NCBI RefSeq assembly: GCF_001429185.1
Contig: NZ_LMIW01000010.1
Coordinates: 186,001-250,000, forward strand
Length of the DNA: 64,000 nucleotides
Origin: Terrabacter sp. Root85
Lineage (GTDB): Bacteria > Actinomycetota > Actinomycetes > Actinomycetales > Dermatophilaceae
Direction of reading: 5' to 3'
This document shows, one piece after another, positions 1 through 56,687 of the stretch (its first letter is position 1; the number at the start of each line of letters is the position of its first letter). The position numbers were made by a program, and so were the translations under genes. The notes under the pieces were generated by a model. It was given only the letters and a program-made list of their open reading frames with translations. It searched no databases and was not told the DNA's origin.

Positions 1-635
1 TCGGGCCTGCCGAAGTACATGTCCCAGTCGGAGAGCAGGCGCCCGAGCTCGGTCACGGGGTCGGCGTGGTCGTCGACGCGCAGGTCGGCGAGCACCCCGC
101 ACGCGTCGTAGCCGGAACCCGGCTCGACGGCATACATGGCTGCGCTCTGGCGTCCGCGGGAGTCGCCACCGGCGGCGTCGCCGGCCACGAGGGCGGCGAG
201 CAGACGCCGGGCGAGCGGCTGCCCTGCCGTCTCGTGCCAGGCGCGCTCCATCTCCTCGACGACCTCGGGCCCGGTGAGGATGTTGCCCTGGATGGCGTAT
301 GCCGTGTGGCCGTCGTCGCGGGCGACGCCGCCCGCCCAGTCGTTGCACTCCGAGCCCGTGAAGGTCGCGGCCGAGGCGAGCCCGACGACGCCCACCTGGC
401 GGGTCTCGCGACCCTCGTCGAGCGCGGTCGCGGCCGCGAGCGCCTCGTCCGCGGGCTCGCCGGCAGCGAGGCGGCCGAGGAGCTCGTCGAGGTAGGCGAC
501 CCGGGCGAAGGACTGCGTCGCGACCGCGCCCACGCCGAGACGGGCGGCCGGGACGACCGCCCCGACCGCGAGGAACTTGCTCGCGACGGCGATGCCGTGG
601 GCGTCACCCTGACGGGCGACGATCGAGAAGGTCAC
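1..635 (-). CDS. DUF1028 family Ntn-hydrolase-like protein (3' end cut by window edge)
   Basis: Reading leftwards from a GTG at 635, the protein begins [14 protein letters not shown] and continues with [14 protein letters not shown], the conserved N-terminus of the DUF1028 family, whose fold resembles Ntn hydrolases. Around residues 90-120 it has the family pattern of a QGNILTG segment. About 211 residues are visible and the C-terminus lies outside the window. The biochemical activity of DUF1028 proteins is not settled, so none is assigned. It starts 15 bp after the hpt stop and is probably co-transcribed with it. No good Shine-Dalgarno sequence precedes the GTG; the start rests on family alignment. 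The gene contains two copies of the octamer described in the findings. Confidence 0.85.
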
Positions 636-650
636 CGGAGGCCGCCGCGG

Positions 651-1202
651 TCAGGCGTAGACGTGCGGGGCGAGGGTGCCGACACAACGCAGGTTGCGGT
701 ACTTCTCGGCGTAGTCGAGGCCGTAGCCGACGACGAACTCGTTGGGGATGTCGAAGCCGACGTACTTGACCGGGATGTCGACCTTGACGACGTCGGGCTT
801 GCGCAGCAGCGTGCAGATCTCGACCGAGGCGGGCTTGCGCGACTCGAGGTTGGACTTGATCCACGAGAGCGTCAGGCCGGAGTCGATGATGTCCTCGACG
901 ATGAGCACGTGGCGGCCGCTGATGTCGGTGTCGAGGTCCTTGAGGATGCGCACGACGCCCGAGGACTTCGTGCCGGAGCCGTAGGACGAGACCGCCATCC
1001 AGTCCATCGGTGCGGTGCCGGGCAGGGCGCGCATGAGGTCGGCCATGACGACGACGGCGCCCTTGAGGACGCCGACGAGGAGGAACTCCTTGCCCTCGTA
1101 GTCCCGCCAGATGTCGGCGGCGAGCTCGGAGAGGCGGGTCTGGATCTGCTCCTCGGTGAGCAGGACCTTGGCCAGGTCATCTCCCATGTGCTCGTGGTCC
1201 AC
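651..1202 (-). CDS. hpt: hypoxanthine phosphoribosyltransferase
   Basis: This purine-salvage enzyme converts hypoxanthine or guanine plus PRPP to IMP or GMP in the cytoplasm. The 183-residue protein has the normal family length. The PRPP-binding loop [13 protein letters not shown] lies at about residues 99-111, and the flexible-loop SYG segment at about 73-75. The GTG start at 1202 is supported by a GAGGAG sequence 5-7 nt upstream; an ATG five codons further in is the alternative. It lies downstream of tilS on the same strand, the usual actinobacterial order. The following gene here is DUF1028, where ftsH is commonly found. Confidence 0.97.
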
Positions 1203-1451
1203 GAAGGCTCCTCAGTGCGTTGCGGGGGGTGGTGCAGGGTCGTGCGGGGCGGGTCCATTCAACCGCACGCGGCTGGGTGCCGTCGCCGCCGGGGAAGCAG
1301 GCCGGGCCTGTCAGCCGAGCGGCCGCTCGAGCCACTCCTCCAGGCGGGCGTATGCCGTCGGCTCCGTCACGACGACGCCGCGGTCGCGCGCCACGGCCCC
1401 CCACACCGTCGGGTGGTGACGGGGCGGCCCAGCGGCTCTCGCGCACCGGGC

Positions 1452-2468
1452 TCAGGCGTTGGCGGTCTGTCGCAGCGGGCTGAAGACGATGGCCCCACCG
1501 GTGCGCGCGACGGCGATGCCGCCGGGCACGTGGAGCGGGCCCTGTCCGTGCCACGAGGTGAGGAGCGCGTCGAGCGACTCGACATGGGCGGCGCTGACGT
1601 CGGCGAGCGGTGCGCCGGCCTCGGCGGCGAGGATCCGCCAGACGCGCGTGCGGATCGCCCGTGGCAGGGCCGCGAGCGCGTCGAGGTCGACGCCCTCACC
1701 GCCAGGACCGCCGGGCAGGTCGGCCCGGGCCCGGACGGCCAGGCTCTCGAGGTAGTCGGCGTCCTCGCGCAGCAGGTCGGCACTGCGGGCCAGGGCTGCC
1801 CCGAAGCCGGGGCCGAGGTCGGACTCGAGGGTGGCGAGCAGCCGGCGGGCGCGGACCCTGCGGAACGAGTCGTCGCTGTTGTGCGGGTCGTCCCATGGGT
1901 CGATGCCGTAGGCCGCGCAGGCGGCCAGCGTCGTGGCGCGCGGCAGGCCGAGGAGGGGACGGACGAAGCGGTCGCGGCGCACCGGCATACCGCTCAGCGA
2001 CCGCGCACCCGACCCGCGGGACAGGCCGAGGAGCACCTGTTCGGCCTGGTCGTCGCGGGTGTGGCCGATGAGCACCATGGACGCGCCGACGCGGTCGGCC
2101 GCGCCCTCGATGGCGGCGTAGCGGGCCGACCGGGCGTCGGCCTCGAGTCCGGCACCGCTCGTGCGCACGTCGGCGCGGACGACCTCGACGGGGTCGAGAC
2201 CGATCTCGCGGCACAGGGCTGCGGCGTCCTCGGCGACCTGGGCCGAACGGTCCTGGAGGCCGTGGTCGACGACGACGGCACCGGCACGCACACCGGAGCG
2301 CGGCGCCTCGAAGGCGAGGGCCGCGGCGAGCGCCACGGAGTCGGGGCCGCCCGAGCACGCGACGAGGACGACACCGCCCTCGGGCACGTCGGCAAGGTGC
2401 TCACGCACCGCGAGCCGGGTGGCGGCGACGGCGGGGTCAGGACCGGGCATGTCTGCGGGACCTCGCAT
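1452..2468 (-). CDS. tilS: tRNA(Ile)-lysidine synthetase
   Basis: TilS uses ATP and lysine to modify the wobble cytidine of the CAU-anticodon tRNA-Ile to lysidine, so that it reads AUA. The PP-loop motif SGGPDS is at residues 39-44, followed by the family segments VVDHGLQ and GHTRDDQAEQ. At 338 residues it is the short actinobacterial form. The ATG at 2468 is separated by one codon-sized gap from the metalloprotease stop (TGA GCG ATG), which implies translational coupling; an internal ATG at 2450 is possible. It lies between the metalloprotease and hpt genes, a conserved arrangement. Confidence 0.96.
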   Translation of the reverse strand: MRGPADMPGPDPAVAATRLAVREHLADVPEGGVVLVACSGGPDSVALAAALAFEAPRSGVRAGAVVVDHGLQDRSAQVAEDAAALCREIGLDPVEVVRADVRTSGAGLEADARSARYAAIEGAADRVGASMVLIGHTRDDQAEQVLLGLSRGSGARSLSGMPVRRDRFVRPLLGLPRATTLAACAAYGIDPWDDPHNSDDSFRRVRARRLLATLESDLGPGFGAALARSADLLREDADYLESLAVRARADLPGGPGGEGVDLDALAALPRAIRTRVWRILAAEAGAPLADVSAAHVESLDALLTSWHGQGPLHVPGGIAVARTGGAIVFSPLRQTANA

Positions 2469-2471
2469 CGC

Positions 2472-3578: not shown

Positions 3579-3701
3579 GCCAGCCCTTTCGGTGCCGTGA
3601 CGGTGTCGACGTCGCGCGAGGTGTCTGGGAAGCCCAGCCGGCAACACGGAGAGGTCACGACCACCATCGCTCACCAGGACCCCGAGCGGCCCACCGGCCC
3701 G

Positions 3702-5336
3702 TCAGCGGCACCCGCACGAGGCGATCGCCGCTACAAAACGGTCCAACGCCGCTCGCGCGTCGTTGGTTCCCACTCCGGCGACCATACCCACGAAGACGAG
3801 GAGCCGACCGTCGTCGTCGACGACGCTCCCGGCGAGGGCGTTGGCCCCGGTCAGGGTGCCCGTCTTGGCCCGGGCGCGGCCTGCGGCGTCGTGCTGCGCG
3901 CCGGTGAACCGGTCCGCCAGGGTGCCGGTCAGGCCACCGATCGGGAGTCCGTCGAGGGCTCGCCGCAGCACGGCGTGCTTCCCGTCGTAGCCGAGCACGA
4001 GCACGTCGGACAGGAGCGAGGCGCGGACCCGGTTCTCGCGGGAGAGGCCGCTCGCGTCGGAGAGGGTCACTCCGGCCGTGTCGAGGCCGAGCGCGGCCAC
4101 CTGCGACACGACCCACGCGCCGACCTCGGCGAAGTCGGTGCCGGCGCCGGAGCGGTAGGCCGCTTGGCGGGAGAGGATCTCGGTCAGCGCGTTGTCGCTG
4201 TCGGTGAGGGCGAGGGCCAGCTGCTCTCGCACGGGCGCGGACTCGACGCTGCCGAGGACCGCTCCCGGGCCGCTCGCGGGCGCCGTCGGCGTCGCGGCCG
4301 CGGTCGTCGGGGCCCGCGCGCCGTCGGGCGTCGCCCCCTCGGGCGGCGTGGCCCCGCCGGACGGTGAGGCCCCGTCGGACGGTGTGGCCCCGTCGGACGG
4401 TGCGGCGGACGCTCCAGCGTCGGCAGCCGGCGTCGGCATCGGCGACCCGGGGACGCCGGGTGCCTGACCTCGCGCGGCCAGCCTCACGTCGATCCCGCGC
4501 CCCTCCAGCTGCCGGGCGAAGGCCGACCGGACGGAGGCGACGGGGTCGGCCGGGCCGGGCGCCCCACCGTGGGCGCGCTGGCTCGACAGCCCGAGCATCG
4601 CGACCGCGCCGGTGATGCCCGAGCTGCGGAAGGTCGACGCCCACGTCGGCGCCGTCGTCGGCCCGGCGGCATACGTCTCGTCGACGTAGAGGGTGACGCT
4701 GGTGGTGCCGCTGCCCTTGAGGGCCGTGGCCACCTGCCCGGCCAGGTCGCGCAGTCCGGCTCGGCCGGCGACCGCGTCGGGGTCGCCCGTGCCGGGGTTG
4801 AGCAGGGAGTCGCCGCCCGCGACGAGGACGATCTCGTCAGGCGTGTCCCCCTCGCGCACTACGGTGCGCAGCGTCTCGTCGGGTGCGAAGGTCTGGCCGA
4901 TGGCCGCGGCGGAGAGCAGCTTGGTCGTCGAGGCCGGGATGCGCAGCTCGTCGCCGCCCTGGTCGAGCAGCACGTCGCCGGTCTGCCCGTCACGGACGAC
5001 GAGGGCTGAGTCGCGCAGCGCCGGGAGCGCACGCACCGACGCGAGCGCCTGCTCGATGCCGGCGGCGGACGGCGCGACGGTGTCGCCGGCGAGTGAGGGC
5101 AGCGGCGGCGCGACAGAGGTCGACAGCGTCGGCTGCGGGACCGAGGGCAGCGTCCGCGTCGCGACCGTCTCGGTGGGCGCGGGCGGCGGCAGCGGCCGCA
5201 CCGTCAGCGCACCGGGCGCGGCGTCGGCGACGTCGAGGACGGCATACCCCAGCACGATCGCGACGACCGACCACACCGCGGCCATGCCGTAGGTCAGGCG
5301 GGGACCGCGCCGCCCCGGCTGCGTCTCGTGCGCCAC
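3702..5336 (-). CDS. dacB: D-alanyl-D-alanine carboxypeptidase/endopeptidase (PBP4 type)
   Basis: This exported penicillin-binding protein trims or cleaves D-Ala-containing peptidoglycan cross-links. It has an N-terminal membrane anchor (about residues 17-38) followed by a Pro/Thr-rich linker. The three catalytic boxes are present: STTK with the nucleophile Ser136, SDN in [10 protein letters not shown], and KTG in RAKTGTLTG. At 544 residues it is within the family range. An inserted low-complexity tract of Ala/Pro/Ser/Gly repeats (encoded near 4310-4440) separates the middle domain from the SDN region. It is the first gene of the leftward block and is divergent from ppa. Confidence 0.95.
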
Positions 5337-6011: not shown

Positions 6012-6142
6012 GCCTCCCGCAACACCTGCCCACACGCGTTCGTATGCCGTGTGCCTGACCCCCGCCGCCCGTCCCGGTCGCGGGGGTCAGCCGTCTCCGG
6101 CGGCGGGTGCGGCACCAGGGTGGGCCTGCACGTGAAATGCGC

Positions 6143-6273: not shown

Positions 6274-7782
6274 TCACTGGGCCTCGGCGCCGTCTGCTGC
6301 GGCGACGGCCACCGCCTCTCGAGTCGGCTCACGGGTCGGCTCGGACGATGCGGTCACCACCTGGGCCGGGCGCGGCCGGAGCACGAACGCCGCGACGAGC
6401 AGCGCCACGAGGGTGAACGTCGCCGACGTGAGGAACGCCGGCTCGACGCCCGGCACGAACTGGCCCGGGACGGCCTGCGACGCATAGACGCTGACGATCG
6501 CGGCGAGCCCCACGGCGCCACCGAGCTGCTGCGCGGTCTGGAGCAGCCCGGAGACCGTGCCGGCCTGGGCGCGGTCGACGCCGCCGAGGACGACGACCGT
6601 GACCGGCATGAAGACGAGCGCGGCCGACACGCCGTTGAGCACCAGCGCACCCAGGAGGTGCGCGGCATACGTGCTCGTCGTCGACATGGTGCTCAGCCAC
6701 ACGAAGCTGGCGGTGAGGCCCAGCGTGCCCACGAGGAGCATCGGCCGGGGGCCGACCTTGGCGACGAGGCGGGCGCTGACCCGCGACGTCGCGAAGATCG
6801 CGAGGCTGAGCGGGAGGAACGCGGCGCCGGTCGCGACCGGGCTGAAGCCGAGGACGAGCTGGAGGTACTGCGTCACGAGGAAGAACGTCGAGAACTGCGC
6901 GCCGACGACGAGCGCCATGAGCACGAGGGCTCCCCCGCGGGTGCGGTTGCGGACGAGCGCGAGCGGCAGCAGCGGGGAGCTGACCCGACCCTCGGTGCGC
7001 ACGAAGAGCGCGATGAGGAGCACGCCGACGACGAACGAGCCGATCGTCACGGGCGACGCCCAGCCGCGGTCGGCCGCACTGATGAAGCCGTGCACGACGG
7101 AGACGGAGCCGAGGGTGGCGGTGATCGCGCCGACCACGTCGAAGCGGCCTCGGATCCTCGGCGTCTCGGTCACGTAGCGGCGCGCGAGGACGAGCACGAC
7201 GGCCCCGATCGGGACGTTGACGAAGAGCGTCCAGTGCCAGCTCACGTAGTCGGTGAGGATCCCACCGAGGAGCAGGCCGATGGACGCGCCGGCGGACGAC
7301 ACGGCCGTGAAGAGCGCCAGCCCGCGGTTGCGCGCGGCCTCGTTCGGGGCGCTCGTCGTGACGAGGGCGAGGACGCTCGGCGCGGCGAGCGCGGCACCGA
7401 CTCCCTGGAGGGTGCGCGCGGCGATGAGCCAGGCGGGGGACGTGGCGAGGCCACCGAGCAGGCTCGCGACGGTGAAGATCGCCAGGCCGATCTCGAAGAT
7501 GCGCAGTCGCCCGAAGACGTCGCCGAGGCGCCCGCCCAGGAGCAGCAGTCCGCCGAAGGCGAGGGTGTAGGCGTTGAGCACCCAGGAGAGGCCCGCGGGC
7601 GTGAACCCGAGGTCGGTCTGGATGTGCGGGAGCGCGACGTTCACGACGGTCGCGTCGAGCACGAGCATGAGCTGGGCGACGAGGACGACGCCGAGGCCGA
7701 TGGCGCCGCGTCTGGCGGCCCGCTCCCTCGTGGAGCGCTCGGGTTGTCGGGTGACGGGTGATGCGGTGGTGCTGGTCGACAT
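6274..7782 (-). CDS. MFS drug exporter, DHA2 (EmrB/QacA) type
   Basis: Integral membrane proton antiporter predicted to export drugs or toxic compounds. The 502-residue protein begins MSTSTTASPV at ATG 7782, preceded by TGAGG, and has about 14 hydrophobic helices. Family motifs include LDATVVNVALP in helix 1 and GGRLGDVFGRL in the first cytoplasmic loop. Upstream codons up to 8106 are basic and Pro-rich and do not look like this family. It lies behind a short unknown frame and opposite a TetR gene with operator-like inverted repeats between them, so repression by that TetR protein is likely. The substrate is unknown. Confidence 0.9.
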   Translation of the reverse strand: MSTSTTASPVTRQPERSTRERAARRGAIGLGVVLVAQLMLVLDATVVNVALPHIQTDLGFTPAGLSWVLNAYTLAFGGLLLLGGRLGDVFGRLRIFEIGLAIFTVASLLGGLATSPAWLIAARTLQGVGAALAAPSVLALVTTSAPNEAARNRGLALFTAVSSAGASIGLLLGGILTDYVSWHWTLFVNVPIGAVVLVLARRYVTETPRIRGRFDVVGAITATLGSVSVVHGFISAADRGWASPVTIGSFVVGVLLIALFVRTEGRVSSPLLPLALVRNRTRGGALVLMALVVGAQFSTFFLVTQYLQLVLGFSPVATGAAFLPLSLAIFATSRVSARLVAKVGPRPMLLVGTLGLTASFVWLSTMSTTSTYAAHLLGALVLNGVSAALVFMPVTVVVLGGVDRAQAGTVSGLLQTAQQLGGAVGLAAIVSVYASQAVPGQFVPGVEPAFLTSATFTLVALLVAAFVLRPRPAQVVTASSEPTREPTREAVAVAAADGAEAQ

Positions 7783-9141: not shown

Positions 9142-9200
9142 CAGTCGAGTGAGCGCCCCGCCCCACTCGAGTGAGCGCTCCGCCCCAGTCCCGTGAGCTC
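9142..9200. repeat. tandem 22-bp repeat with ACTCGAGTGAGCGC core
   Basis: Two units of 22 bp start at 9142 and 9164 (CAGTCGAGTGAGCGCCCC and CACTCGAGTGAGCGCTCC), followed by a degenerate third unit. The same core recurs in both orientations at 53534-53655 beside topA, so this is a dispersed intergenic repeat family. Function unknown. Confidence 0.75.
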
Positions 9201-9203
9201 GAC

Positions 9204-11009: not shown

Positions 11010-11371
11010 CAGCCCAGGAGGTCGGCCAGGTCGGTGTCACCCCGCCGGCGGCGCCCGCCGCGGATGTCATAGGAGTCGACGAGCAGCTCCGCGAGCTCAG
11101 CCCGGTCGAGGCGGTCGAGGCGCGCCCACACCGTGACGCGGTAGCGGAACGTGTCGATCCGCACGAACGTGTCGCGCCGGTCGGCGAGCGCCTGCTCGGT
11201 GTCCATCTCGCCGGTCCACACCTGGACGAGCTCGCGCCCGTCGTCGTCCCAGCGCAGACGAGCGAACGTATGCCGTCCGGCGTGCCAGGCGGGAGAGCCC
11301 TCGTGGGCGACCCCGAGCACCGCGCCGGGCAGGCGCCCGGCCAGCTCGTCCACGTCCGCCCACGTCGCCAT
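11009..11371 (-). CDS. MmcQ/YjbR family protein
   Basis: A 120-residue cytosolic protein of the small MmcQ/YjbR (CyaY-like fold) family, often listed as DNA-binding although the role is poorly defined. Family features include LPGAVLGVAHEGSPAWHAG near the N-terminus and RDTFVRIDTFRYRVTVWARLD in the second half. The start at ATG 11371 is preceded by GGAGGAGGA. A basic stretch (GGRRRRGD) precedes the C-terminus. It is flanked on both sides by repeat-bearing intergenic DNA. Confidence 0.88.
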   Translation of the reverse strand: MATWADVDELAGRLPGAVLGVAHEGSPAWHAGRHTFARLRWDDDGRELVQVWTGEMDTEQALADRRDTFVRIDTFRYRVTVWARLDRLDRAELAELLVDSYDIRGGRRRRGDTDLADLLG

Positions 11372-11499: not shown

Positions 11500-12831
11500 T
11501 CAGTGGAAGGTGACGGAGCGGCCGGCCTGCATGGCGGCGTACGCGTCGGGGTCGGCCTCGAGGGCCGCGCGCCGCGCCCTGTGCCGGTAGCGCAGGATCT
11601 GCACGATCCCGAGCGCCCACACGGGGTACTGCACCGTCATCGCGACCCGGAACGCGTCGACGTCCCAGGTCGGCGGCCCGCCCGGAGCGACCCGGTCGAG
11701 GACGACGCCGACGAGGGCCACCGCCGTCAACGTCGCGATGAAGCCGCCGGTGTTGACGATGCCCGAGGCGCTGCCGATGCGGGTCGGCGGGTTGAACGTG
11801 CGCGCGAGGTCGAAGCCGATCATCGAGCCCGGACCGCCGATGGCGATGAGCACGACGAGGACGACGAGCATCCACAGCGGCGCGCGTCCGGGCCAGAGCA
11901 GGACCACCGTCCAGGCGGCGATCGCGGCGGCCACGATCCACAGCACGAGGGTGCTGCGCGAGAACGGGTAGCGCATCGTCAGCGTGCCGATGACAGGGCT
12001 CGACACGACCGTCGTCACGACCATGAGCATGAGCAGCACACTCGCCGTCGACGCCGAGACTCCTTGTCCTGCAACGAGGAACGGGAAGCCCCACAACATC
12101 GTGAACATGTTGGCGGCGAACTGCGACGTGAAGTGCGACCACAGCCCGAGCCGGGTGCCCGGCACGAGCCACGCCGCCCGCAGGGTGCGCGCGATGGCCC
12201 GCAGCCGCAGCTCGTCGCGGTGGTGGTCGACGTAGGGGCTGTCCTTGACGACGACGACGAGCGCGACCCCCGTGAGCACGCCGACCGACGCCGCGACGGC
12301 ATACGACGGGGTCCAGCCGAAGTGGTCGAGCGCGGCCGCGAGCGGCCCGGCGGCGGCGAACGCCCCGAGCTGCCCGAGGACGCCGGTCAGCTGCGTCACC
12401 ATCGGCGTGCGGCGCGGTGAGAACCACAGCGCGACGAGGCGCAGCACCGAGATGAACACCATGGCGTCGCCCATGCCGAGCAGCACCCGGCAGAGCAGGG
12501 CGGCGGGGAAGGCGTGGACGAACGCGAAGCCGAACTGGGCCACCGTCAGCAGGGTGAGCCCGACCCCGAGCATCCGCTTGCTGCCGTAGCGGTCGAGCAG
12601 CGCCCCGACCGGCAGCTGCATCGCCGCGTAGACGAAGACCTGGACGATCGTGAAGGTCGACAGCTGCGAGCTGCTGATGCCGAAGCGGTCGGCGGCCTCG
12701 AGACCGGCGACACCGAGCGAGGTGCGGTGGAAGACGGCGAGGACGTAGACCGAGATGGCGGCCGCCCACACCGCCCAGGCGCGGCGGCCGTCGAGCGGGT
12801 AACGCTGTCCGGGATGGGTCGTGCTCGTCAT
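11500..12831 (-). CDS. MFS transporter
   Basis: A 443-residue protein with 12 predicted helices. The loop 2-3 region reads LPVGALLDRYGSKRMLG, and the N-terminus WAVWAAAISVYVLAVFHRTSLG resembles nitrate/phosphonate-type or sugar-phosphate-like MFS members common in Actinobacteria. ATG 12831 is used; GAGGAG lies 13 bases upstream, rather far. It starts 18 bp after the malic enzyme stop on the same strand, so a transported carboxylate is conceivable, but that is inference from position only. Confidence 0.88.
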   Translation of the reverse strand: MTSTTHPGQRYPLDGRRAWAVWAAAISVYVLAVFHRTSLGVAGLEAADRFGISSSQLSTFTIVQVFVYAAMQLPVGALLDRYGSKRMLGVGLTLLTVAQFGFAFVHAFPAALLCRVLLGMGDAMVFISVLRLVALWFSPRRTPMVTQLTGVLGQLGAFAAAGPLAAALDHFGWTPSYAVAASVGVLTGVALVVVVKDSPYVDHHRDELRLRAIARTLRAAWLVPGTRLGLWSHFTSQFAANMFTMLWGFPFLVAGQGVSASTASVLLMLMVVTTVVSSPVIGTLTMRYPFSRSTLVLWIVAAAIAAWTVVLLWPGRAPLWMLVVLVVLIAIGGPGSMIGFDLARTFNPPTRIGSASGIVNTGGFIATLTAVALVGVVLDRVAPGGPPTWDVDAFRVAMTVQYPVWALGIVQILRYRHRARRAALEADPDAYAAMQAGRSVTFH

Positions 12832-14297: not shown

Positions 14298-14470
14298 CGT
14301 CCCACGACCGGAGAAGCGACCCGGACCTCGTCCGAAGACCGATCAGTAACCTTTGTCCACCGCCGCGCGACGACGGTCGTATGCCGTCGCGCCGCCTTCC
14401 CGAGACGCCTCCGCAGCGCTCGCGCGCGTTCCACCGCGGAGGCGAGCACCCGGCATACGACAATGGGCCG

Positions 14471-17154: not shown

Positions 17155-18390
17155 GTGTCACCCATCGACTCCTACCGCCACCTCTTCGGCCTCACCGGGC
17201 GCACCTACATCGTCGTCGCCTTCCTGGCTCGTATGCCGCTCGCGATGAGCCAGCTGGGCACCCTCCTGCTCGTGTCGTCCGCCACCGGCAGCTATGGCGC
17301 GGGCGGCTTCTGCGCCGGTGCCCTCGCCGTGGCCAACGCCGTCGGGGCGCCCTTCTGGGGTGCCCGGGCCGACCGGCTCGGCCAGCGCCGGGTCGTCGCC
17401 TTCCAGTCGCTCGCCGGGGCGGCCGGCCTCGTCGGCATCCTCCTCGTGGTCAACGCCGGACTCCCTTGGGGCGTGGCCGCGGTCGCCAGCGCGGTCGCGG
17501 GTCTCCTTCTGCCGCAGATCGGTCCGCTGGCCCGCGTGCGCTGGCGCCCCATCACCGCCGAGACCGGTGCCCGCCAGCACCGGCTCGTCGACGCCGCCTT
17601 CTCCTACGAGGGCGCGGCCGACGAGGCCTCCTTCGTGCTCGGCCCGGCGCTCGTCGGGCTCGGCGTCTCCGTCGCCAGCCCCACGGCGGCCTTGGCGCTG
17701 GCGGCCGCGGGCCTCGCCGTCTTCGGCACGTGGTTCGCCCTGCACGAGACCGCAGCGGTCACGCACGCCGCGACGTCGCGGACGACCGGCGCCGTCGGCC
17801 GGCTGATGACACCCGCCGTCGTCGTCCTGTGCGCCGCCCAGCTGCTCGTCGGCACCGTCTTCGGGTCGGTCCAGACCGGCACGTCCGTCCTCGCCACCGC
17901 TGCGGGCTCCCCCGGCCTCACGGGCTACTTCCACGCCCTGCTCGGCGTCGGCAGCGTCATCGCCGGTCTCGCCGTCGCAGGACTGCCCGCGCGGTTCGCG
18001 CTGTCGGCACGGCTGCGGTGGTTCGCCGTCGGCCTGCTCGCCCTCTCGGCGCCGCTCCTGCTCGTCGGGTCGCTGCCCGCTCTCGTCCCCGTCCTGCTCG
18101 TGCTCGGCCTCACGGTCGCGCCCTACATGATCACGACGTTCACCCTGGGCGAGCGCGTCACTCCGCCGTCACGCACCGGCGCCGCGATGACGGCCCTCGC
18201 CGCGGCCACCGGGCTCGGCTACGCGCTCGGAGCCGCGCTGGCCGGGCGCCTCGCCGACTGGGGCGGGCACACGCCGGCGTATGCCGTCACGGTCGGTGCC
18301 GGCGCCGCAGCCGTCCTCGTGTCGTGGGGATTCCGGCGGGTCCTCGAGCGCGCCCAGCCCCACGAGGCCGCGCCAGCGCCCGTCCCCTGA
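17155..18390 (+). CDS. MFS transporter
   Basis: A 411-residue membrane protein with about 12 helices, starting at GTG 17155 behind GGAG. The protein begins VSPIDSYRHLFGLTGRTY and contains the loop 2-3 sequence GARADRLGQRRVV. Most of the sequence is short, Ala/Leu/Val-rich helices with few charged residues, typical of efflux-type MFS members of Actinobacteria. The substrate is unknown. The 5' leader shows an unusually structured arrangement, which suggests control of translation or transcription by a ligand or stress. Confidence 0.88.
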   Translation: MSPIDSYRHLFGLTGRTYIVVAFLARMPLAMSQLGTLLLVSSATGSYGAGGFCAGALAVANAVGAPFWGARADRLGQRRVVAFQSLAGAAGLVGILLVVNAGLPWGVAAVASAVAGLLLPQIGPLARVRWRPITAETGARQHRLVDAAFSYEGAADEASFVLGPALVGLGVSVASPTAALALAAAGLAVFGTWFALHETAAVTHAATSRTTGAVGRLMTPAVVVLCAAQLLVGTVFGSVQTGTSVLATAAGSPGLTGYFHALLGVGSVIAGLAVAGLPARFALSARLRWFAVGLLALSAPLLLVGSLPALVPVLLVLGLTVAPYMITTFTLGERVTPPSRTGAAMTALAAATGLGYALGAALAGRLADWGGHTPAYAVTVGAGAAAVLVSWGFRRVLERAQPHEAAPAPVP

Positions 18391-20147: not shown

Positions 20148-20445
20148 CGGGTCACTGTGCCAGATCGACGACGGCCCGGGCTCTGCCGGGGATTGTCGAC
20201 AAAAGCCCCACGACCCACCATTCCAAAACTTCTCGGCACAAATTTGTCGAAAGTCCGTACACGTGGCTACAGGTTCATTACTGTCACACCTGTAACACCC
20301 CCACGGCTGGCACGCACCCCCCCATCCGCACCAGCCTCGAAGGAGCCCGTCCTGCGCGCGCAGGTGGGCTCCTTCGTCATTCCCGGGAGTATGCCGTCCC
20401 GCGGGCCATGGGGCTCGGCGCCGTCGCGTGTCGGGGCACGGAGAA
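20148..20445. other. intergenic region with AT-rich segment, inverted repeats and a hairpin
   Basis: No convincing gene. 20192-20300 is markedly AT-richer than its surroundings and holds TTGTCGACAA, ACAAATTTGT and the inverted repeat TACAGGT (20268-20274) / ACCTGTA (20288-20294). A strong hairpin with a ten-base stem GAAGGAGCCC/GGGCTCCTTC at 20339-20375 and a second inner palindrome follows. It could be the end of a short plus-strand RNA starting near 20280-20300, or simply the promoter of the leftward phosphotransferase plus a terminator. Confidence 0.5.
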
Positions 20446-26880: not shown

Positions 26881-27069
26881 GCCCGAAACCGTAACCGGTC
26901 GACCTGTAGGCGGCCGCCACGGACGACAGGTCGTGACCGCATCGAGGCCGTATGCCGTGTCGCCCGACCCGTCGGCCGCGCGGGCTGCCGCACGGGGCGG
27001 CTCGCGGGCCCGCCGGGCGCTCCCCCGCCACGCATGAAGAACCTCACACCGACGCCGCGCGCGAGTGGG

Positions 27070-29037: not shown

Positions 29038-30081
<1,044 letters not shown>

Positions 30082-37693: not shown

Positions 37694-38461
37694 ATGAAAC
37701 GCACCGTCGACCCCGGACCGGGTCGCTCCCGGGCCCGGGCGTCGAGCCCGTCCAGGGGGGTGGTCGCCGCGCTCGCGGCCGCCCTCCTGGCGGGCGTGGG
37801 CGTGGCGTGGCTGACGCGCGCCTCGGACACCGCCCTCCCCGCGGCGTCCGGGGCGGGCGTCACCAGCACCGCCGCACCCGCAGCCGGCGCCCCCACGACC
37901 CCTGCCCCGCAACCGGGGTCGCCGGGGTCGCCGGGGTCGCCGGCCGGGACGGACGGCTCGGCCGGTCCGGCACAACCGGGGGTCCGCCCGGCGACGCAGC
38001 AGGCGGGCCCGACCGCGGCGGCCCCCGACCGCCTGACGATCCGCCGTCTCGGCATCGACATGCGGGTCGTTCCGGTGGGCGTCGCCCGTGACGGCGAGAT
38101 GGCGCTGCCGGAGACGCCGGCGCAGGTGGGCTGGTACCGCTACGGCCCGCGGCCCGGCGACGACGCCGGGTCGACGGTCCTCGCGGCGCACCTCGACATG
38201 CCGGGCTACGGGATCGGCCCCATCGCGGCCGTCGAGGAGCTGCGCACGGGCGACGTCATCACGGTGCGGTCGGGCGAGGTGAGCAGGAGGTATGCCGTGA
38301 CGTCGGTGACCCAGGTCCGCAAGACGACGCTGGACCTCGCCGCCCTCTTCGCCCGCGACGGACCTGCACTGCTCCACGTCGTGACCTGCGGGGGCGACTT
38401 CGACCGCGAGCAGCGCCGCTACGACGAGAACGTCGTCGTGACCGCCGAGCCGCTCGCGTGA
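37694..38461 (+). CDS. class E/F sortase
   Basis: A 255-residue membrane transpeptidase. An N-terminal membrane segment (about residues 23-41) is followed by a Pro/Ser-rich linker. The sortase catalytic triad is visible: His166 in LAAHLDMP, Cys232 in VVTCGG, and Arg241 or Arg242 in EQRRYDE. A tandem (GGGTCGCCG) repeat at about 37915-37945 encodes the GSPGSP linker. The sigma gene overlaps its stop by four bases. DUF4397 or fasciclin proteins are candidate substrates. Confidence 0.9.
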   Translation: MKRTVDPGPGRSRARASSPSRGVVAALAAALLAGVGVAWLTRASDTALPAASGAGVTSTAAPAAGAPTTPAPQPGSPGSPGSPAGTDGSAGPAQPGVRPATQQAGPTAAAPDRLTIRRLGIDMRVVPVGVARDGEMALPETPAQVGWYRYGPRPGDDAGSTVLAAHLDMPGYGIGPIAAVEELRTGDVITVRSGEVSRRYAVTSVTQVRKTTLDLAALFARDGPALLHVVTCGGDFDREQRRYDENVVVTAEPLA

Positions 38462-39057: not shown

Positions 39058-39964
39058 CGACGAGCTCGTCGACCTCGCCCTGGGCGAGCCCGTCGACGCG
39101 AGTCGTTCTGCCCACGTCGAGGAGTGTGCCGTCTGCTCCGCGTCGGTGGAGCAGCTGCGCCGCACCCTGCGCCTCGCCTCAGGACCGCTGGCGTATGCCG
39201 GCTGGCAGGCTCCCGACGACGCCGTCTGGGCGCGCGTGACCGCCCAGATCGACGCGGAGCCCGACGCCCCGGTCGATGCCGGGCCGCCCCCCGCGACCAT
39301 GGCGGGTCCCGACGCCGGACCTGACGCCGGACCCGCGCCCACTCCTCCGGAGACCCCCCTGCCTCGCGACGAGCGACCGTCAGGGACGGACGCCGCCGAC
39401 CGACCTGACCGACCTGACCGACCCGCGAACCCGACCGGTCCCGCGGCGACGGCGGGGACGGCATACCCCCCCGAACCCGTCCCCGCGGACGCGACGGTCA
39501 CGCCGATCACGGCGGGCGCCGCTCGTGCGACGCGCCGACGTGCCGCGGCGTGGGGCGCCGCTCTCGTGGCGGCCAGCCTCGTCGTGGGACTGCTCGCCGG
39601 GCGGGCCATCTGGAGCCCGAACGAGAGCGGGAGCGTCTCGCAGGTCGCCCTGAAGACCCTCGACACGCGCCAGCGCGAGGGAGAGGCCTCGGTCGTGCGG
39701 GCCGGGGACGGGCTCGACCTCAACGTCGTCACCGATCGTCCGCTCGACGCCGGCGACGGCTACCTCGAGGTCTGGCTCATCAACGCCGACGGCAAGCGGA
39801 TGGTCTCCGTCGGGGTGCTGCGACCCGGCGAGACGGGCACCTTCCCGATCAGCCAGGCGCTCATCGACCAGGGCTACGTCGTCGTCGACATCTCCAAGGA
39901 GCAGTTCGACGACAAGCCGGCGCACTCGGGCGACAGCCTGCTGCGGGGCCAGCTGCCCGCCTGA
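39041..39964 (+). CDS. zinc-binding anti-sigma factor (RskA family)
   Basis: A 307-residue membrane protein that should hold the adjacent ECF sigma factor inactive. The N-terminal ZAS motif is HVEECAVC (HxxxCxxC), at about residues 27-34. A long Pro/Asp-rich linker leads to the membrane helix AAAWGAALVAASLVVGLLAG, then an extracellular RskA domain with EVWLINADGKRMVSVG. The GTG start at 39041 follows AAGGAGG. Confidence 0.92.
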   Translation: MSHPTDDELVDLALGEPVDASRSAHVEECAVCSASVEQLRRTLRLASGPLAYAGWQAPDDAVWARVTAQIDAEPDAPVDAGPPPATMAGPDAGPDAGPAPTPPETPLPRDERPSGTDAADRPDRPDRPANPTGPAATAGTAYPPEPVPADATVTPITAGAARATRRRAAAWGAALVAASLVVGLLAGRAIWSPNESGSVSQVALKTLDTRQREGEASVVRAGDGLDLNVVTDRPLDAGDGYLEVWLINADGKRMVSVGVLRPGETGTFPISQALIDQGYVVVDISKEQFDDKPAHSGDSLLRGQLPA

Positions 39965-42948: not shown

Positions 42949-43025
42949 ATCTGCGTGTGCGGGAGTCGCCTCGACCGCCGGATCCGACGCGGACGGCATA
43001 CGCCATCTGCGTCGCGCTGCTCGGC

Positions 43026-45199: not shown

Positions 45200-47422
<2,223 letters not shown>

Positions 47423-47476: not shown

Positions 47477-47581
47477 CGCGTATGCCGCCACGCACGTCGG
47501 ACGCCGGACGATCCGTGAGCACGGGGTTGGCGGAACGACATACTCCACCACGTCGACTGCTGACGAGAACGCTTGTGACAG

Positions 47582-50448: not shown

Positions 50449-51663
50449 TCAGCGGATGCGGACGCCGCTGATGGCCCTCGCGATGACGAGTCGCTGGATC
50501 TCGGACGTGCCCTCGAAGATCGTGTAGATCTTCGCGTCGCGCGACCACCGCTCGACGGGGTGGTCGGTGACGTAGCCGGCCCCACCGAGGATCTGCACCG
50601 CCTTGTCGGTCACGGCGACCGCGACCTCACCCGCCTTGAGCTTGCTCATCGAGCCCTCGGCCGCGGTGAACGGCTGGTTCGTGCGCCCCATCCACGACGC
50701 CCTCCAGACGAGCAGCCGGGCCGCGTCGATCTCGGTGCGCATGTCGGCGAGCGCGAACGCGATCGCCTGGTTCTCGATGATCGGCCGACCGAAGGCGACG
50801 CGGCCCTTGGCGTAGTCGAGGGCGTACTCGTATGCCGCCCTGGCGATCCCGAGCGCCTGCGCACCCACCGTGGGGCGCGAGATCTCGAACGTCCGCATGG
50901 CCGCCTGTCCGCTCGACGACCCTCCCTCGCGGGCCCGGGCGAGGCGCTCGTCGAGCTTGTCCTTGCCGCCGAGCAGGCACGAGCCCGGCACGCGCACGTC
51001 GTCGAGGAAGACGTCGGCGGTGTGCGAGGCGCGCAGGCCGAGCTTGCGCAGCTTCTTGGCGCCCTCGAGCCCCTTCGTGCCGGGCGGGACGACGAAGGCG
51101 GCCTGCCCGCGCGAGCCGAGGTCGGGGTCGACGACGGCCGTCACGACGTGGACGTTGGCGATGCCGCCGTTGGTGATGTAGGCCTTCTGGCCATTGAGGA
51201 TCCACTCGTCGGCGGCCTCGTCGTAGCGGGCCCGCGTGCGCATGGCGCCGACGTCGGAGCCGGCCTGCGGCTCGGTCGTCGCGAAGGCCCCGAGCTTCGG
51301 GTCGTCGGCGTCGCCGTAGCACTGCGGCAGCCACTCGACCATCTGTTCGGGGGTGCCCGAGCCGTAGATCGCGGCCACCGCGAGGGTCGTGCCGAAGATC
51401 GACATCCCGATGCCCGCGTCACCCCAGAAGAGCTCCTCGTTGGCGAGGTTGATCGAGATGCCGGTCGGGTCGGACCAGCACTGGGCCAGGAACTCGAAGC
51501 CGTAGAGGCCGTTCCTGGCCGCCTCCTGGATGACCGGCCAGGGCGTCTCCTCCCTCGCGTCCCACTCGGAGGCGGCCGGGCGCACGACGTCGGCGGCGAA
51601 GCCGTGCACCCAGTCGCGCAGCTCGGTCTGGTCGTCGTTCAGGGCGAGCGAGAACTCCACCAC
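50449..51663 (-). CDS. acyl-CoA dehydrogenase
   Basis: FAD enzyme introducing a 2,3 double bond into acyl-CoA. The protein has 404 residues from GTG 51663 (GAGG six bases upstream; GTG 51660 also possible). FAD- and substrate-binding stretches are TEPQAGSDVGAMRTRA and WILNGQKAYITNGG; the catalytic glutamate is in TIFEGTSEIQR. The stop of the SCP2 gene lies nine bases before the start, so the two are co-transcribed in a lipid-oxidation unit. Confidence 0.93.
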   Translation of the reverse strand: MVEFSLALNDDQTELRDWVHGFAADVVRPAASEWDAREETPWPVIQEAARNGLYGFEFLAQCWSDPTGISINLANEELFWGDAGIGMSIFGTTLAVAAIYGSGTPEQMVEWLPQCYGDADDPKLGAFATTEPQAGSDVGAMRTRARYDEAADEWILNGQKAYITNGGIANVHVVTAVVDPDLGSRGQAAFVVPPGTKGLEGAKKLRKLGLRASHTADVFLDDVRVPGSCLLGGKDKLDERLARAREGGSSSGQAAMRTFEISRPTVGAQALGIARAAYEYALDYAKGRVAFGRPIIENQAIAFALADMRTEIDAARLLVWRASWMGRTNQPFTAAEGSMSKLKAGEVAVAVTDKAVQILGGAGYVTDHPVERWSRDAKIYTIFEGTSEIQRLVIARAISGVRIR

Positions 51664-52139: not shown

Positions 52140-52193
52140 CGGGGGTCCCTCCGGAGGAAACGGCATTGTTACCGCGAGTAGGTTACCGGACGG

Positions 52194-52985: not shown

Positions 52986-52997
52986 GGGATCAGCCTC

Positions 52998-53471
52998 TCA
53001 CCGCGGGCCGACGTTCCCGTCACCAGCGCCACCGGGCGCGACCGGCAGCGTGTAGACGACGTAGCCCTCGAACGTCGCGACCTCGTCGTAGAGGCGGCGG
53101 GCGAGGGCGTTCGACTCGTGGGTCTGCCAGTAGACGCTGCCACAGCCGTGCTCGCGTGCCCAGTCACGCACGGCCGCGATGGGGGCGCTCGCCACGCCGC
53201 GACCACGCACCGCCGGGTCGGTGAAGAGGTCCTCGAGGTAGCAGAGGTCGGGCTCGCTCGAGCTGGGGTGCACGAGGAAGTGGGTGATCCCGACGAGCTC
53301 GCCGTCGAGCCATGCCCCGAGCCCGTGCAGTCTTGTGTCAGAGGCGATCTCGCGCCACGCCCGGTCGTATGCCGTCTGGCCGAGCTCACGCTCGTAGAAG
53401 CGGATGTACGCGCGGAAGAGCGTCTCCCACCGGTCCCGGTCGGTGGGTTCCAGACGTCGGGTCTCGATCAC
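52998..53471 (-). CDS. GNAT family N-acetyltransferase
   Basis: A 157-residue acetyltransferase. The motif A region is LEDLFTDPAVRGRGVASAPIAAV, followed by YWQTHESNALARRLYDEVA. Start ATG 53471. Its pairing with a PIG-L deacetylase might mean that they act on related amino sugars, but this is speculative. Substrate unknown. Confidence 0.88.
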   Translation of the reverse strand: MIETRRLEPTDRDRWETLFRAYIRFYERELGQTAYDRAWREIASDTRLHGLGAWLDGELVGITHFLVHPSSSEPDLCYLEDLFTDPAVRGRGVASAPIAAVRDWAREHGCGSVYWQTHESNALARRLYDEVATFEGYVVYTLPVAPGGAGDGNVGPR

Positions 53472-53533
53472 GACCCGACGCTAGCGCGACGGCACCGTCC
53501 CCGGCAGGGCCACCTCACGGCATACGCGATGAG

Positions 53534-53655
53534 CCACTCGAGTGAGCGCCAAACCACACTCGAGTGAGCACGCGGTCACAGACGAGCGAGCGCCCCACCC
53601 CACGAAGGTGGGACGGGGCGCTCACTCGAGTGGGACGGAGCGCTCACTCGACGTG
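53534..53655. repeat. ACTCGAGTGAGCGC repeats in both orientations plus hairpin, beside topA
   Basis: Forward copies begin at 53534 and 53557, and two inverted copies (GCGCTCACTCGA) lie at 53619-53650. Between them, CGCCCC-a-CCCCAC / GTGGGAC-GGGGCG forms a strong hairpin near 53591-53620. The block ends just before the topA stop at 53661 and may terminate topA. The same unit occurs at 9142-9200. Confidence 0.8.
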
Positions 53656-53660
53656 GTGGG

Positions 53661-56432
53661 TCAGGCCTTCTTGGCGGTGGCCTTCTTCGTCGTGCGCGTC
53701 GTCGCCTTCTTCGCGGTCTTCTTCGCCGTCTTCTTCACGGCGCGCTTGCGGGTCGTCGGGCCCTTGGCGCGCTTCTCGGCGAGCAGCTCGAAGCCCCGCT
53801 CCGGCGTGATCGCCTCGGGGTCGTCGTCCTTGCGCAGCGTCGCGTTGGTCTCGCCGTCGGTGACATACGGACCGAAGCGGCCGTCCTTGACGACGACGGG
53901 CTTGCCGCTGACGGGGTCGGCGCCGAGCTCCTTGAGGGGCGGGGCGGCCGCGGCACGACCGCGCTGCTTGGGCTGGGCGTAGATCGCGAGCGCCTCGTCG
54001 AGCGTGATGTCGAAGAGCTGCTGCTCGGTCGTCAGCGACCGCGAGTCGGTGCCCTTCTTGAGGTACGGGCCGTACCGACCGTTCTGCGCGGTGATCTCGA
54101 CACCTTCGGCGTCGGCACCGACGACGCGCGGCAGCGAGAGCAGCTTGAGCGCCGAGTCGAGGTCGAGCGTCGCGAGCTCCATGTCCTTGAAGAGCGAGGC
54201 CGTGCGCGGCTTGACCTTGGCGGCCTTCTTGGCCTTGGGCTTGTCGGCCGCGGCGGCGTCGTCGTCGTCGATGACCTCGGTGACGTAGGGCCCGTAGCGC
54301 CCGGCGCGCGCGATGATCTCGCGGCCGGTCTCGGGGTCCTTGCCGAGCACCTTGCCGTCGTCGGCGGCGACCTCGAGCAGCTCGCGCGCCTTCCCGGGCG
54401 TCATCTCGTCGGGCGCGATGTCGTCGGTGATCGTCGCGCGGCGCGGCGTCGACGGCACCTCGGCGCCGTCCGCGACCTCGCCCGTCGCGAGGTCGACGCC
54501 CGCGGGCACGAGCTCCTCGACGTAGGGGCCGTAACGGCCGACGCGCACGACCATGCCGTCGCCGATCGGGATCGTGCTGATCTCCTTGGCGTCGATCTCG
54601 CCGAGGTCCTCGACGAGGTTGCGCAGACCGGCGGCCGAGGTGGCCTCCTCGCCGAAGTAGAACCGCTTGAGCCACGCGACGCGACCCTCGTCGCCGTTGG
54701 CGATGCGGTCGAGGTCCTCCTCCATCGAGGCGGTGAACTCGTAGTCGACGAGGTTGCCGAAGTGCTCCTCGAGCAGCCGGGTCACGGCGAAGGCGAGCCA
54801 CGTCGGCACGAGGGCCTGGCCCTTGGTGAAGACGTAGCCGCGGTCCTGGATCGTGCCGATCGTCGAGGCGTACGTCGAGGGGCGGCCGATGCCGCGCTCC
54901 TCCATCGCCTTGACGAGGGTGGCCTCGGTGAAGCGGGCGGGCGGGCTCGTCTCGTGGCCGTCGGCCTCGGCGCGCACGACCTCGAGCGGGACGCCGGCGC
55001 TCAGCTTGGGCAGGCGACGCTCCTCGGCGGCGGCGTCGGCGCGGGCGGCGGACTCGTCGTCCCGGCCCTCCTCGTAGGCGGCGAGGAAGCCCTTGAAGGT
55101 GATGACGGTGCCGCTCGCGCTGAACTCGACCGACTGGGCGCCCTCGAGCGCCGTGTCGACAGCGAGCTTGACGGTGGCGGTCGAGCCGCGGGCGTCGGCC
55201 ATCTGCGAGGCGACGGTGCGCTTCCAGATCAGCTCGTAGAGCGCGAACTCCTCGCCGCGCAGCGACCCGGCGACCTGGGCCGGGCTGCGGAAGCGGTCGC
55301 CGGCGGGACGGATGGCCTCGTGGGCCTCCTGCGCGTTCTTGACCTTCTTCTCGTAGCGGCGCGGGCTGTCCGGAACGTACTCGGCGCCGTACATGTCGCG
55401 TGCCTGGCTGCGCGCGGCGGTCATCGCGGCGTCCGACAGCGTCGTGCTGTCGGTACGCATGTAGGTGATGTAGCCGTTCTCGTAGAGCCGCTGCGCCACG
55501 CGCATCGCGTTCTTGGACGACATCCGCAGCTTGCGGGACGCCTCCTGCTGGAGGGTCGAGGTCGTGAACGGGGCCGACGGGCGGCGGGTGTAGGGCTTCT
55601 CCTGGACGTCGGTGACGCGCGCTGTGAGGGGCAGGCACGCCTCGGCGATCCGGGTCGCGAGGGCCTCGTCGAGGTGGACGACGCCCTTGCCGGTCAAGCG
55701 GCCGTCGTCGGCGAAGTCGCGACCGGTGGCGACGCGGACGCCGTCGACGGAAGACAGTCGTGCCGTGAACTGCTGGCTCGCACTGTCGGGGGTGAAGTCG
55801 CCCTCGACGTCCCAGTAGGAGGAGCGGACGAACGCCATGCGCTCACGCTCGCGCTCGACGACCATGCGGGTCGCGACGGACTGGACGCGGCCGGCCGAGA
55901 GGCCCTGGCGGACCTTGCGCCACAGGACCGGGCTGACCTCGTAGCCGTAGAGGCGGTCGAGGATGCGGCGGGTCTCCTGGGCGTCGACCATCGCGGTGTC
56001 GATCTCGCGGGTGTCGTTGACGGCCCGCTGGATCGCCTCGCGGGTGATCTCGTGGAACACCATGCGCTTGACAGGGACCCGCGGCTTGAGCGCCTCGAGC
56101 AGGTGCCACGCGATGGCCTCGCCCTCGCGGTCCTCATCGGTGGCGAGGTAGAGCTCGCTGGCGTCCTTGAGGAGCCGCTTGAGCTCGGCGACCTTCTTCT
56201 TCTTGTCCGGGTCGACGACGTAGTACGGCTCGAAGCCGTTGTCGACGTCGACGGCGAACTTGCCGAACGGGCCCTTCTTCATGTCGGCCGGCAGCTCGGA
56301 GGGGTTCGGCAGGTCACGGATGTGACCCACGGACGCCTCGACCTCGAAGTCGCCTCCGAGGTAGCCGGCGATGGTCTTCGCCTTGGCGGGCGACTCGACG
56401 ATGACGAGCTTGCGGCCCTTGCCTGCGGCCAT
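53661..56432 (-). CDS. topA: DNA topoisomerase I
   Basis: A 923-residue type IA topoisomerase relaxing negative supercoils. The TOPRIM domain includes TDEDREGEAIAWH at about residues 98-110; the catalytic tyrosine is Tyr324 in YITYMRTDST. The C-terminal part has repeated domains (GRYGPYV repeats) and a Lys-rich tail (KKTAKKTAKKATTRTTK), as in actinobacterial enzymes; zinc-finger cysteines are absent. In many Actinobacteria topA lies directly upstream of tmk-holB; here it is 25 kb away. Confidence 0.96.
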   Translation of the reverse strand: MAAGKGRKLVIVESPAKAKTIAGYLGGDFEVEASVGHIRDLPNPSELPADMKKGPFGKFAVDVDNGFEPYYVVDPDKKKKVAELKRLLKDASELYLATDEDREGEAIAWHLLEALKPRVPVKRMVFHEITREAIQRAVNDTREIDTAMVDAQETRRILDRLYGYEVSPVLWRKVRQGLSAGRVQSVATRMVVERERERMAFVRSSYWDVEGDFTPDSASQQFTARLSSVDGVRVATGRDFADDGRLTGKGVVHLDEALATRIAEACLPLTARVTDVQEKPYTRRPSAPFTTSTLQQEASRKLRMSSKNAMRVAQRLYENGYITYMRTDSTTLSDAAMTAARSQARDMYGAEYVPDSPRRYEKKVKNAQEAHEAIRPAGDRFRSPAQVAGSLRGEEFALYELIWKRTVASQMADARGSTATVKLAVDTALEGAQSVEFSASGTVITFKGFLAAYEEGRDDESAARADAAAEERRLPKLSAGVPLEVVRAEADGHETSPPARFTEATLVKAMEERGIGRPSTYASTIGTIQDRGYVFTKGQALVPTWLAFAVTRLLEEHFGNLVDYEFTASMEEDLDRIANGDEGRVAWLKRFYFGEEATSAAGLRNLVEDLGEIDAKEISTIPIGDGMVVRVGRYGPYVEELVPAGVDLATGEVADGAEVPSTPRRATITDDIAPDEMTPGKARELLEVAADDGKVLGKDPETGREIIARAGRYGPYVTEVIDDDDAAAADKPKAKKAAKVKPRTASLFKDMELATLDLDSALKLLSLPRVVGADAEGVEITAQNGRYGPYLKKGTDSRSLTTEQQLFDITLDEALAIYAQPKQRGRAAAAPPLKELGADPVSGKPVVVKDGRFGPYVTDGETNATLRKDDDPEAITPERGFELLAEKRAKGPTTRKRAVKKTAKKTAKKATTRTTKKATAKKA

Positions 56433-56687
56433 GGTGCACCTTCAACTTCCCGCATCTCACGTGCAGCGGATTCGTCGCTGCCCCGACGTGGACGCGGACC
56501 GACCGTAACAGCCCGCGCCGAGTGCGGTCTCACGACATCCACCGGAGAGGGGCGTATGCCGTCCGCCGCAGCCCCGGTCCTCGGGCTCGCTCGGGTGGCG
56601 GGTGCGGTCACCTGCCGCGGGTGCGGCGAAAAGGGGCCACCGGGCATACGCCCTCGGGAATGATGGCGATCCAACGCTCGTTCCCCA

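Follow-up and report, generated by a model that had tools for sequence, protein, structure and literature searches.

The 64,000-nucleotide stretch of the Terrabacter sp. Root85 genome analysed here (the window; contig NZ_LMIW01000010.1, positions 186,001 to 250,000) is densely marked with a single octamer, GTATGCCG. The word is kept by selection on the DNA, its two orientations are spaced independently of each other, and related genera carry other words of similar form, a switch of dialect being accompanied by loss of the old set of sites. We tentatively favour, at somewhat less than an even chance, the explanation that GTATGCCG is an uptake-like self-recognition word that forms dialects and would be read directionally during one-way DNA import.

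Abundance of the octamer and pressure on the DNA

The window holds 34 exact copies of GTATGCCG (19 on the plus and 15 on the minus strand, spanning 128-56561), a recount identical to that of the earlier note on this DNA. Chance expectation, put there at two to three, turns out to be lower: dinucleotide shuffles give 0.84, with a maximum of 3 in 100 shuffles. GTATGCCG ranks first among the octamers of the window by its ratio to an order-2 Markov model, and in a 464-kb sample (the window and a further 400 kb of the genome) 219 copies are found against 6.8 expected from such a model. The whole genome (G000; 4,865,335 bases in 15 contigs) contains 2300 copies, 1168 forward and 1132 reverse, compared with 237 (112 and 125) for the reversed control word. 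Such hyper-abundance of a short word is shared with the DNA uptake sequences (DUS) of Neisseriaceae and the uptake signal sequences (USS) of Pasteurellaceae, and over-representation of an octamer with Chi. In its own genome the word is a sharp octamer, with weak flank preferences for C at -1, G at -3, T at +8 and C at +9 (first base = 0). The sister word GTACGCCG had been thought scarcer than due, at about five copies. The window actually contains 8, against 3.3 by base composition, and the 464-kb sample 48, against 42 or 39 expected, which is no depletion; within genes, the count is slightly under codon expectation (42 versus 59.2 ± 7.3).

Genes are taken here as the calls of a simple custom caller, which left the first 650 window bases without a gene. 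In the genes of the 464-kb sample, 135 copies of GTATGCCG are observed, whereas 100 synonymous-codon shuffles yield 12.6 ± 3.6 with a maximum of 23; the excess thus survives when codons are preserved. The density is 4-fold higher outside genes (1.40 per kb) than inside (0.334 per kb). Most coding copies fall in the two frames described previously, Tyr-Ala (TAT GCC) for 82 of the 135 and Ala-Tyr (GCA TAC) for 38, and the word is used in approximately 22% of 367 Tyr-Ala and 11% of 354 Ala-Tyr dipeptides. Since the synonymous shuffles, the intergenic density and the conservation described below agree, the pressure acts on DNA rather than on protein, as had been argued from the window. The Markov ratios together with the synonymous shuffles rule out a codon or Markov artefact. 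A signal at the RNA level is rejected as well, because sense and antisense copies are both enriched in genes (10.5-fold and 14-fold) and copies between codirectional genes lie 19 in the same and 29 in the opposite orientation (p = 0.19). Nowhere in the 464 kb are neighbouring sites farther apart than at a ribosomal protein operon, identified by eye from the sequence, where costly codons should be least tolerated.

Selection on the DNA is evident from comparison at orthologous sites, a check that the earlier note had proposed. Among five congeners aligned around comEC, 88 of 108 aligned GTATGCCG sites are identical, and random octamers in the same alignments are identical in a fraction of 0.30 to 0.64, depending on the pair. 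The states at non-conserved sites are mixed, GTACGCCG being the commonest, followed by GTATGCGG, GTATGCCA, GTGTGCCG and others.

The sites of the window are given below. Intergenic copies had been reported correctly, although their number, about ten, was too low: 14 of the 34 lie outside our gene calls.

128-135, minus strand, outside called genes
297-304, plus strand, outside called genes
1350-1357, plus strand, within a doubtful 31-codon gene call
1983-1990, minus strand, coding
4667-4674, minus strand, coding
5240-5247, minus strand, coding
6042-6049, plus strand, intergenic
6663-6670, minus strand, coding
11268-11275, plus strand, coding
12297-12304, minus strand, coding
14379-14386, plus strand, intergenic, opposite site 72 bp away
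14451-14458, minus strand, intergenic
17231-17238, plus strand, coding
18279-18286, plus strand, coding
19067-19074, minus strand, coding
20389-20396, plus strand, intergenic
24656-24663, plus strand, coding
25276-25283, minus strand, outside called genes
26950-26957, plus strand, intergenic
27657-27664, minus strand, coding
29475-29482, minus strand, coding
29544-29551, minus strand, coding, with 29475 a rare close same-orientation pair
30885-30892, plus strand, coding
33871-33878, plus strand, coding
38290-38297, plus strand, coding
39193-39200, plus strand, outside called genes
39459-39466, minus strand, outside called genes
42994-43001, minus strand, intergenic
46039-46046, plus strand, coding
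47480-47487, plus strand, intergenic
50830-50837, plus strand, coding
53367-53374, plus strand, coding
53518-53525, minus strand, intergenic, near topA
56554-56561, plus strand, intergenic, near topA

The region downstream of topA also contains three copies of a palindrome, CACTCGAGTG (53535-53632), of which one copy plus a one-mismatch copy recur at 9142-9173. The copies lie some 22 bp apart inside degenerate repeats (CACTCGAGTGAGC...), and one exact copy is present in each of the two other sampled stretches of G000. With one mismatch allowed, the count of CACTCGAGTG in the window is not above chance.

Orientation, spacing and dialects

Comparisons were made with 117 relatives: 71 genomes of family f1 and 46 from other families, with family f19 represented by 28. 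TopA of the window is 90% identical to that of Intrasporangium oryzae and 89% to that of a Humibacillus metagenome-assembled genome (MAG), by which f1 corresponds to Dermatophilaceae.

The two orientations of GTATGCCG are spaced independently. In G000, same-orientation pairs occur at 0.10 of expectation at 100-500 bp and 0.31 at 500-1000 bp, recovering to 0.77 at 2-3 kb and 1.01 at 3-4 kb; opposite-orientation pairs remain close to expectation beyond the hairpin range (<100 bp). When orientations are shuffled with positions fixed, 73.2 ± 6.1 same-orientation pairs are expected at 60-2000 bp and 43 are observed (z = -5.0), and the avoidance is retained in coding sites alone (z = -3.1) and in intergenic sites alone (z = -2.3). 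It recurs below 1 kb in G068 (z = -3.3), in G047 (z = -2.15), in seven other genera pooled (z = -2.1) and in G034, whose word is GGATGCCG (z = -3.55). Five congeners show it up to 2 kb (z = -2.3), with a hint left at 2-4 kb (z = -1.9). Avoidance restricted to the same orientation suggests that the word is read one way only.

No polarity along the chromosome was detected. Twenty samples of the complete G068 chromosome contain 173 and 179 sites by orientation (two-arc split, p = 0.98), and three stretches of G000 contain 19/15, 21/26 and 66/72. For an E. coli Chi sample, 51 of 82 sites lie on the expected strand with a two-arc split of p = 0.097, the test being weak at small samples. The word thus resembles DUS and USS in having no chromosomal polarity; neither the replication polarity of Chi (G068, 352 sites) nor the arm bias of FtsK-orienting polar sequences (KOPS) is seen, the latter in line with the earlier exclusion of a KOPS-like motif.

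Inverted pairs of sites form hairpins. Plus-minus pairs below 100 bp number 10 in G000, against 2.6 expected. Six inverted pairs with a gap of at most 40 bases are present in the 464 kb, all of them intergenic and 6 to 124 bp from the flanking gene calls, and most have long stems and short loops reminiscent of terminators. Genomes with GGATGCCG form equivalent hairpins from that word, and intergenic hairpins built from inverted pairs are likewise found with DUS and USS. The intergenic density of GTATGCCG is 2.06 per kb between convergent, 1.56 between codirectional and 0.73 between divergent genes. Of 80 loci of viral contigs examined for GTATGCCG hairpins, none of the ten densest has more than 5 copies.

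A 20-kb stretch of G068 is poor in the word, with 1 site compared with a mean of 17.6 in the 20 samples (Poisson p = 4e-7, uncorrected for the stretch having been picked afterwards as the lowest of 20). It carries a JetABCD (Wadjet) cluster beside an OLD-like ATPase and an insertion sequence (IS) transposase (L209:7332-14171).

GTATGCCG is enriched in all nine own-genus genomes and in many other f1 genomes, including G015 with 4724 copies in 4.2 Mb; in the 46 genomes of other families it never exceeds 167 copies. The enriched word is GTACGCCG in G031, G032, G048, G056 and G062 and GGATGCCG in G024 and G034, and these three main words differ at positions 2 and 4 only (GKAYGCCG). G052 (genus g45) holds two of them, 1217 copies of GTATGCCG and 2195 of GGATGCCG, and has possibly been caught in the middle of a switch. 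A clear word is found in 37 of the 53 f1 genera, and about a third are without one, with cut-offs of at least 0.2 per kb and 4x control for GTATGCCG (g16 was accepted at 2.5x), at least 0.3 per kb and 6x control for GTACGCCG, and at least 0.6 per kb and 9x control for GGATGCCG. Genus g3 was scored as having a word on the basis of G062, although G010 lacks it, and borderline genera (g2, g20 and others) as lacking one. The GTACGCCG dialect is the least secure, since in many genomes codon use by itself raises the word to approximately 3-5 times the control; in G108 of family f5, too, it is found at 10x control. In family f19, GKATGCCG is at least 8x control in 18 of 28 genomes, and the word was confirmed as GGATGCCG in G090 and G106 (in G090, 8.4x for GGATGCCG and 7.3x for GKATGCCG). 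Like g3, genus g79 of f19 includes species with a word and species lacking one.

Named loci of about 10-23 kb each give a similar picture. GTATGCCG occurs in those of Intrasporangium oryzae, Knoellia flava and Phycicoccus sp. Soil802, GTACGCCG in that of Allobranchiibius, and GGATGCCG in those of a Humibacillus and a Dermatophilaceae MAG. No copy of GTATGCCG and few of the other dialect words are present in two Janibacter loci, Kytococcus and Dermacoccus. Related taxa thus use related dialects, as is the case for DUS and USS. Our searches of the open-access literature brought up no account of this word, nor any of uptake sequences in Dermatophilaceae, and among the matches listed the papers containing GTATGCCG or CGGCATAC deal with unrelated topics.

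The sites of the old dialect are lost after a switch. The same-dialect pair G000/G047, 82.1% identical in DNA, still shares 21 of 36 sites. Across dialects, none of 27 sites is kept between G000 and the GGATGCCG genome G034 at 80.8% identity, 2 of the 27 having turned into GGATGCCG in place, and 2 of 14 are kept in G024, also a GGATGCCG genome, at 78.7%, with one turned into GGATGCCG. When dialect labels are mapped on a tree of AdnA from 30 genomes, 12 changes are required, compared with a shuffled mean of 16.6.

Several other features of these genomes were recorded. In g16 (G023, L075-L076), the word is embedded in a longer common context (approximately CCAGCGGCATACGG) resembling a dispersed repeat. 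Position 6 seems to be relaxed in G012 and G011 (L059-L060, L063-L064), Flexivirga (L111) and Metallococcus (L125), where GTATGACG and GTATGGCG are also enriched. Other abundant octamers are GAGCATCC in Microcella and a Microbacterium MAG (L179 and L181, Microbacteriaceae), CGACGGCG in many Arthrobacter loci (among L146-L180), CGGCACCG in Boudabousia (L174) and CCCCTTCG(CC) in G045 (L053-L054), some of which may be codon effects.

Possible functions and the search for a reader

Of the causes listed in the earlier note, an uptake motif is the closest known kind. We favour an uptake-like function because most features are of the kind known from uptake sequences: the number and density of sites, the missing polarity, the dialects, the hairpins, the patchy presence and the turnover of sites when the dialect changes. 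The density gradient from convergent to divergent gene pairs and the scarcity of the word in the Wadjet/IS island of G068 also speak for it. A competent cell would favour DNA of its own kind, labelled by the word of its own dialect, and the reader would belong to the DNA import machinery; ComEC is found in 68 of the 71 f1 genomes, and the other three are draft assemblies. Import would presumably run one way from the site, and a site would make another redundant only if both point in the same direction within approximately 2 kb. One-way import would thereby give rise to avoidance between same-orientation sites only, over that distance.

Several observations weigh against this proposal. The orientation spacing is unlike that of USS and only weakly like that of DUS. 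As yardsticks we used viral contigs, chosen among the matches listed for holding an inverted pair, at 80 loci for each type; after near-duplicates and loci with fewer than 4 sites were dropped, 30 USS and 45 DUS loci were retained. The H. influenzae-type USS sample has no avoidance (31 same and 30 opposite at 60-1000 bp), and that of Neisseria DUS is weak (43 same versus 65 opposite at 60-500 bp; 121 and 146 at 60-1000 bp). Uptake in H. influenzae is reported as orientation-independent (PMC1939737). The spacing effect is itself uneven: it was not seen in the GTACGCCG sample (74 same versus 73.7 expected, z = 0.1), falls short of significance when G024 is taken by itself (z = -0.48 at 60-1000 bp and -1.67 at 60-2000 bp), and is not clear in the named loci (z = -1.3) or, once the range is extended to 2 kb, in the pooled other genera (z = -1.1) and G068 (z = -1.5). 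One-mismatch variants, with the sites masked, are not enriched in G000 (302 versus 297 expected) and mildly so in G034 (398 versus 316). As to machinery, ComEC is also present in genera without any word, PilM of type IVa pili was found in 3 of 71 f1 genomes, and the proteins of one tight adherence (Tad) cluster show no special divergence across the dialect switch. Nor did we find a report of transformation in Dermatophilaceae in the open-access literature.

The surveys of ComEC, PilM, T2SSE, RecC, AdnAB, the Tad cluster and the comEC neighbourhood did not yield the reader. The pilus ATPase family was discarded as a predictor of the word, T2SSE being present in 71 of 71 genomes. No convincing receptor emerged from 67 protein triplets of the Tad cluster and the comEC neighbourhood, the most divergent being a 206-residue protein.

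The main rival, which we consider unlikely, is a Chi-like function, in which the word tells the AdnAB helicase-nuclease to stop degrading a broken end and to start recombination. Such an enzyme reads from one side, so that each orientation would be spaced independently, and two-ended breaks would call for both orientations everywhere; the directional spacing is therefore predicted directly. The sharpness of the octamer, with no enriched variants in G000, also agrees with this function. AdnAB-type genes are present in G000, and an AdnA-type protein was found in all 30 genomes chosen for the search (27 of f1 and 3 of f19), which favours the rival; against it, AdnA is equally present in genera that have no word. 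The AdnA and AdnB labels are ours, given from similarity to solved mycobacterial-type helicase chains. RecC, detected in 24 of 71 f1 genomes, is rarer among genera with a word (8 of 37) than among those lacking one (11 of 16; p = 0.0017, uncorrected for kinship), which speaks for the rival; RecBCD itself is rejected as reader, as RecC was not found in G000. All 5 GTACGCCG genomes have T at AdnA column 280, presumably near helicase motif III, where 9 of 10 GTATGCCG genomes have A. However, this single striking column is confounded by kinship (G011 breaks the pattern), and the numbers of dialect-associated columns above z = 3 are similar in AdnA (18) and AdnB (22), so that AdnAB residues were not adopted as dialect trackers. 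The Walker A motif of the G000 AdnA-type protein (L084:4560-7796, minus strand, own-genome C1) reads GPGTGT, compared with GPGTGK in the solved 7sjr_A; G052, G016, G009 and G045 have likewise lost this lysine, and its loss was dropped as a marker, having no link to the word.

E. coli Chi itself behaves differently. In 300 kb of K-12, its same-orientation pairs are clustered (26 versus 13.8 expected at 60-1000 bp) and it is merely 3.2-fold enriched. Neither a rapid change of dialect nor a role in hairpins is known to us for Chi, which counts against a Chi-like function. Moreover, Chi is described as polarised (PMC8022716), and no polarity was found for GTATGCCG. In the rival's favour, a 2026 paper calls it unclear how AdnAB handles Chi-like steps (PMC13309787).

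Two further explanations are each improbable. The word could be methylated on one strand and thereby distinguish a strand, or the cell's own DNA, in repair or restriction. With an asymmetric mark a single strand would be labelled, and each orientation would have to be dense by itself; their independent spacing, the confinement of differences between the main words to positions 2 and 4, and the patchy presence are consistent with such a mark, and the dialects would follow swaps of the target domain of a methyltransferase. Methylation sites are, however, usually not over-represented, and the nearest case, HIP1, is a palindrome (PMC4390886). With no greater probability, the word could be the binding site of an abundant chromosome-organising protein, for which its genome-wide presence, conservation and more even spacing than chance would speak; a static binder hardly explains orientation-specific avoidance, and the dialects switch between close genera.

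Deamination of a methylated GTACGCC (5-methylcytosine), put forward in the earlier note, is very improbable even though GTACGCCG is the commonest single alternative state among congeners, because mutational bias explains neither the orientation-specific spacing nor the conservation (88 of 108), both of which require selection, and because GTACGCCG is not missing, the alternative states are mixed, GTACGCCG is itself a dialect elsewhere, and the T/G difference of GGATGCCG in a sister lineage cannot arise in this manner.

Comparison with known systems

To our knowledge, two proteobacterial families are the only ones with established uptake-type sequences. DUS are similar to GTATGCCG in having more than 1000 copies in coding and intergenic DNA and in both orientations, and in forming dialects among the genera of Neisseriaceae (PMC3630211) and terminator-like inverted pairs, which are reported for USS as well (PMC1852404). 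They belong to another phylum, and their avoidance is weak and below 500 bp in our sample, whereas that of GTATGCCG reaches approximately 2 kb. USS share the density, the hairpins and the lack of orientation bias round the chromosome (PMC1939737); unlike GTATGCCG, they show no orientation effect in our sample besides hairpins, and orientation-independent uptake is reported for them, as noted above. Chi (E. coli GCTGGTGG and relatives) is an octamer too, and its directional reader would explain the spacing, but the polarity described for it is absent from GTATGCCG, which is far more enriched and whose same-orientation pairs are avoided rather than clustered. HIP1 of cyanobacteria is a hyper-abundant, clade-limited octamer of unknown purpose (PMC4390886); GTATGCCG differs from its own reverse complement, and hence is not palindromic as HIP1 is, and it is spaced by orientation.

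It is therefore conceivable, at a strength slightly below that of our proposal of uptake, that this dialect-forming octamer is a novel type of genomic signal, its two orientations making up independently spaced sets and its reader being a directional machine hitherto undescribed in Actinobacteria, be it for one-way import, for a Chi specific to AdnAB or for a mark on a single strand; it would then be neither DUS nor Chi as known. If a dialect word does operate in this actinobacterial family, self-recognition or control of recombination becomes testable in organisms for which our searches brought up no account of it, and sister genera with different dialects offer a natural experiment for finding the reader. 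The orientation-pair statistic, which is simple and informs on the mode of reading, separates GTATGCCG from the USS, DUS and Chi samples alike.

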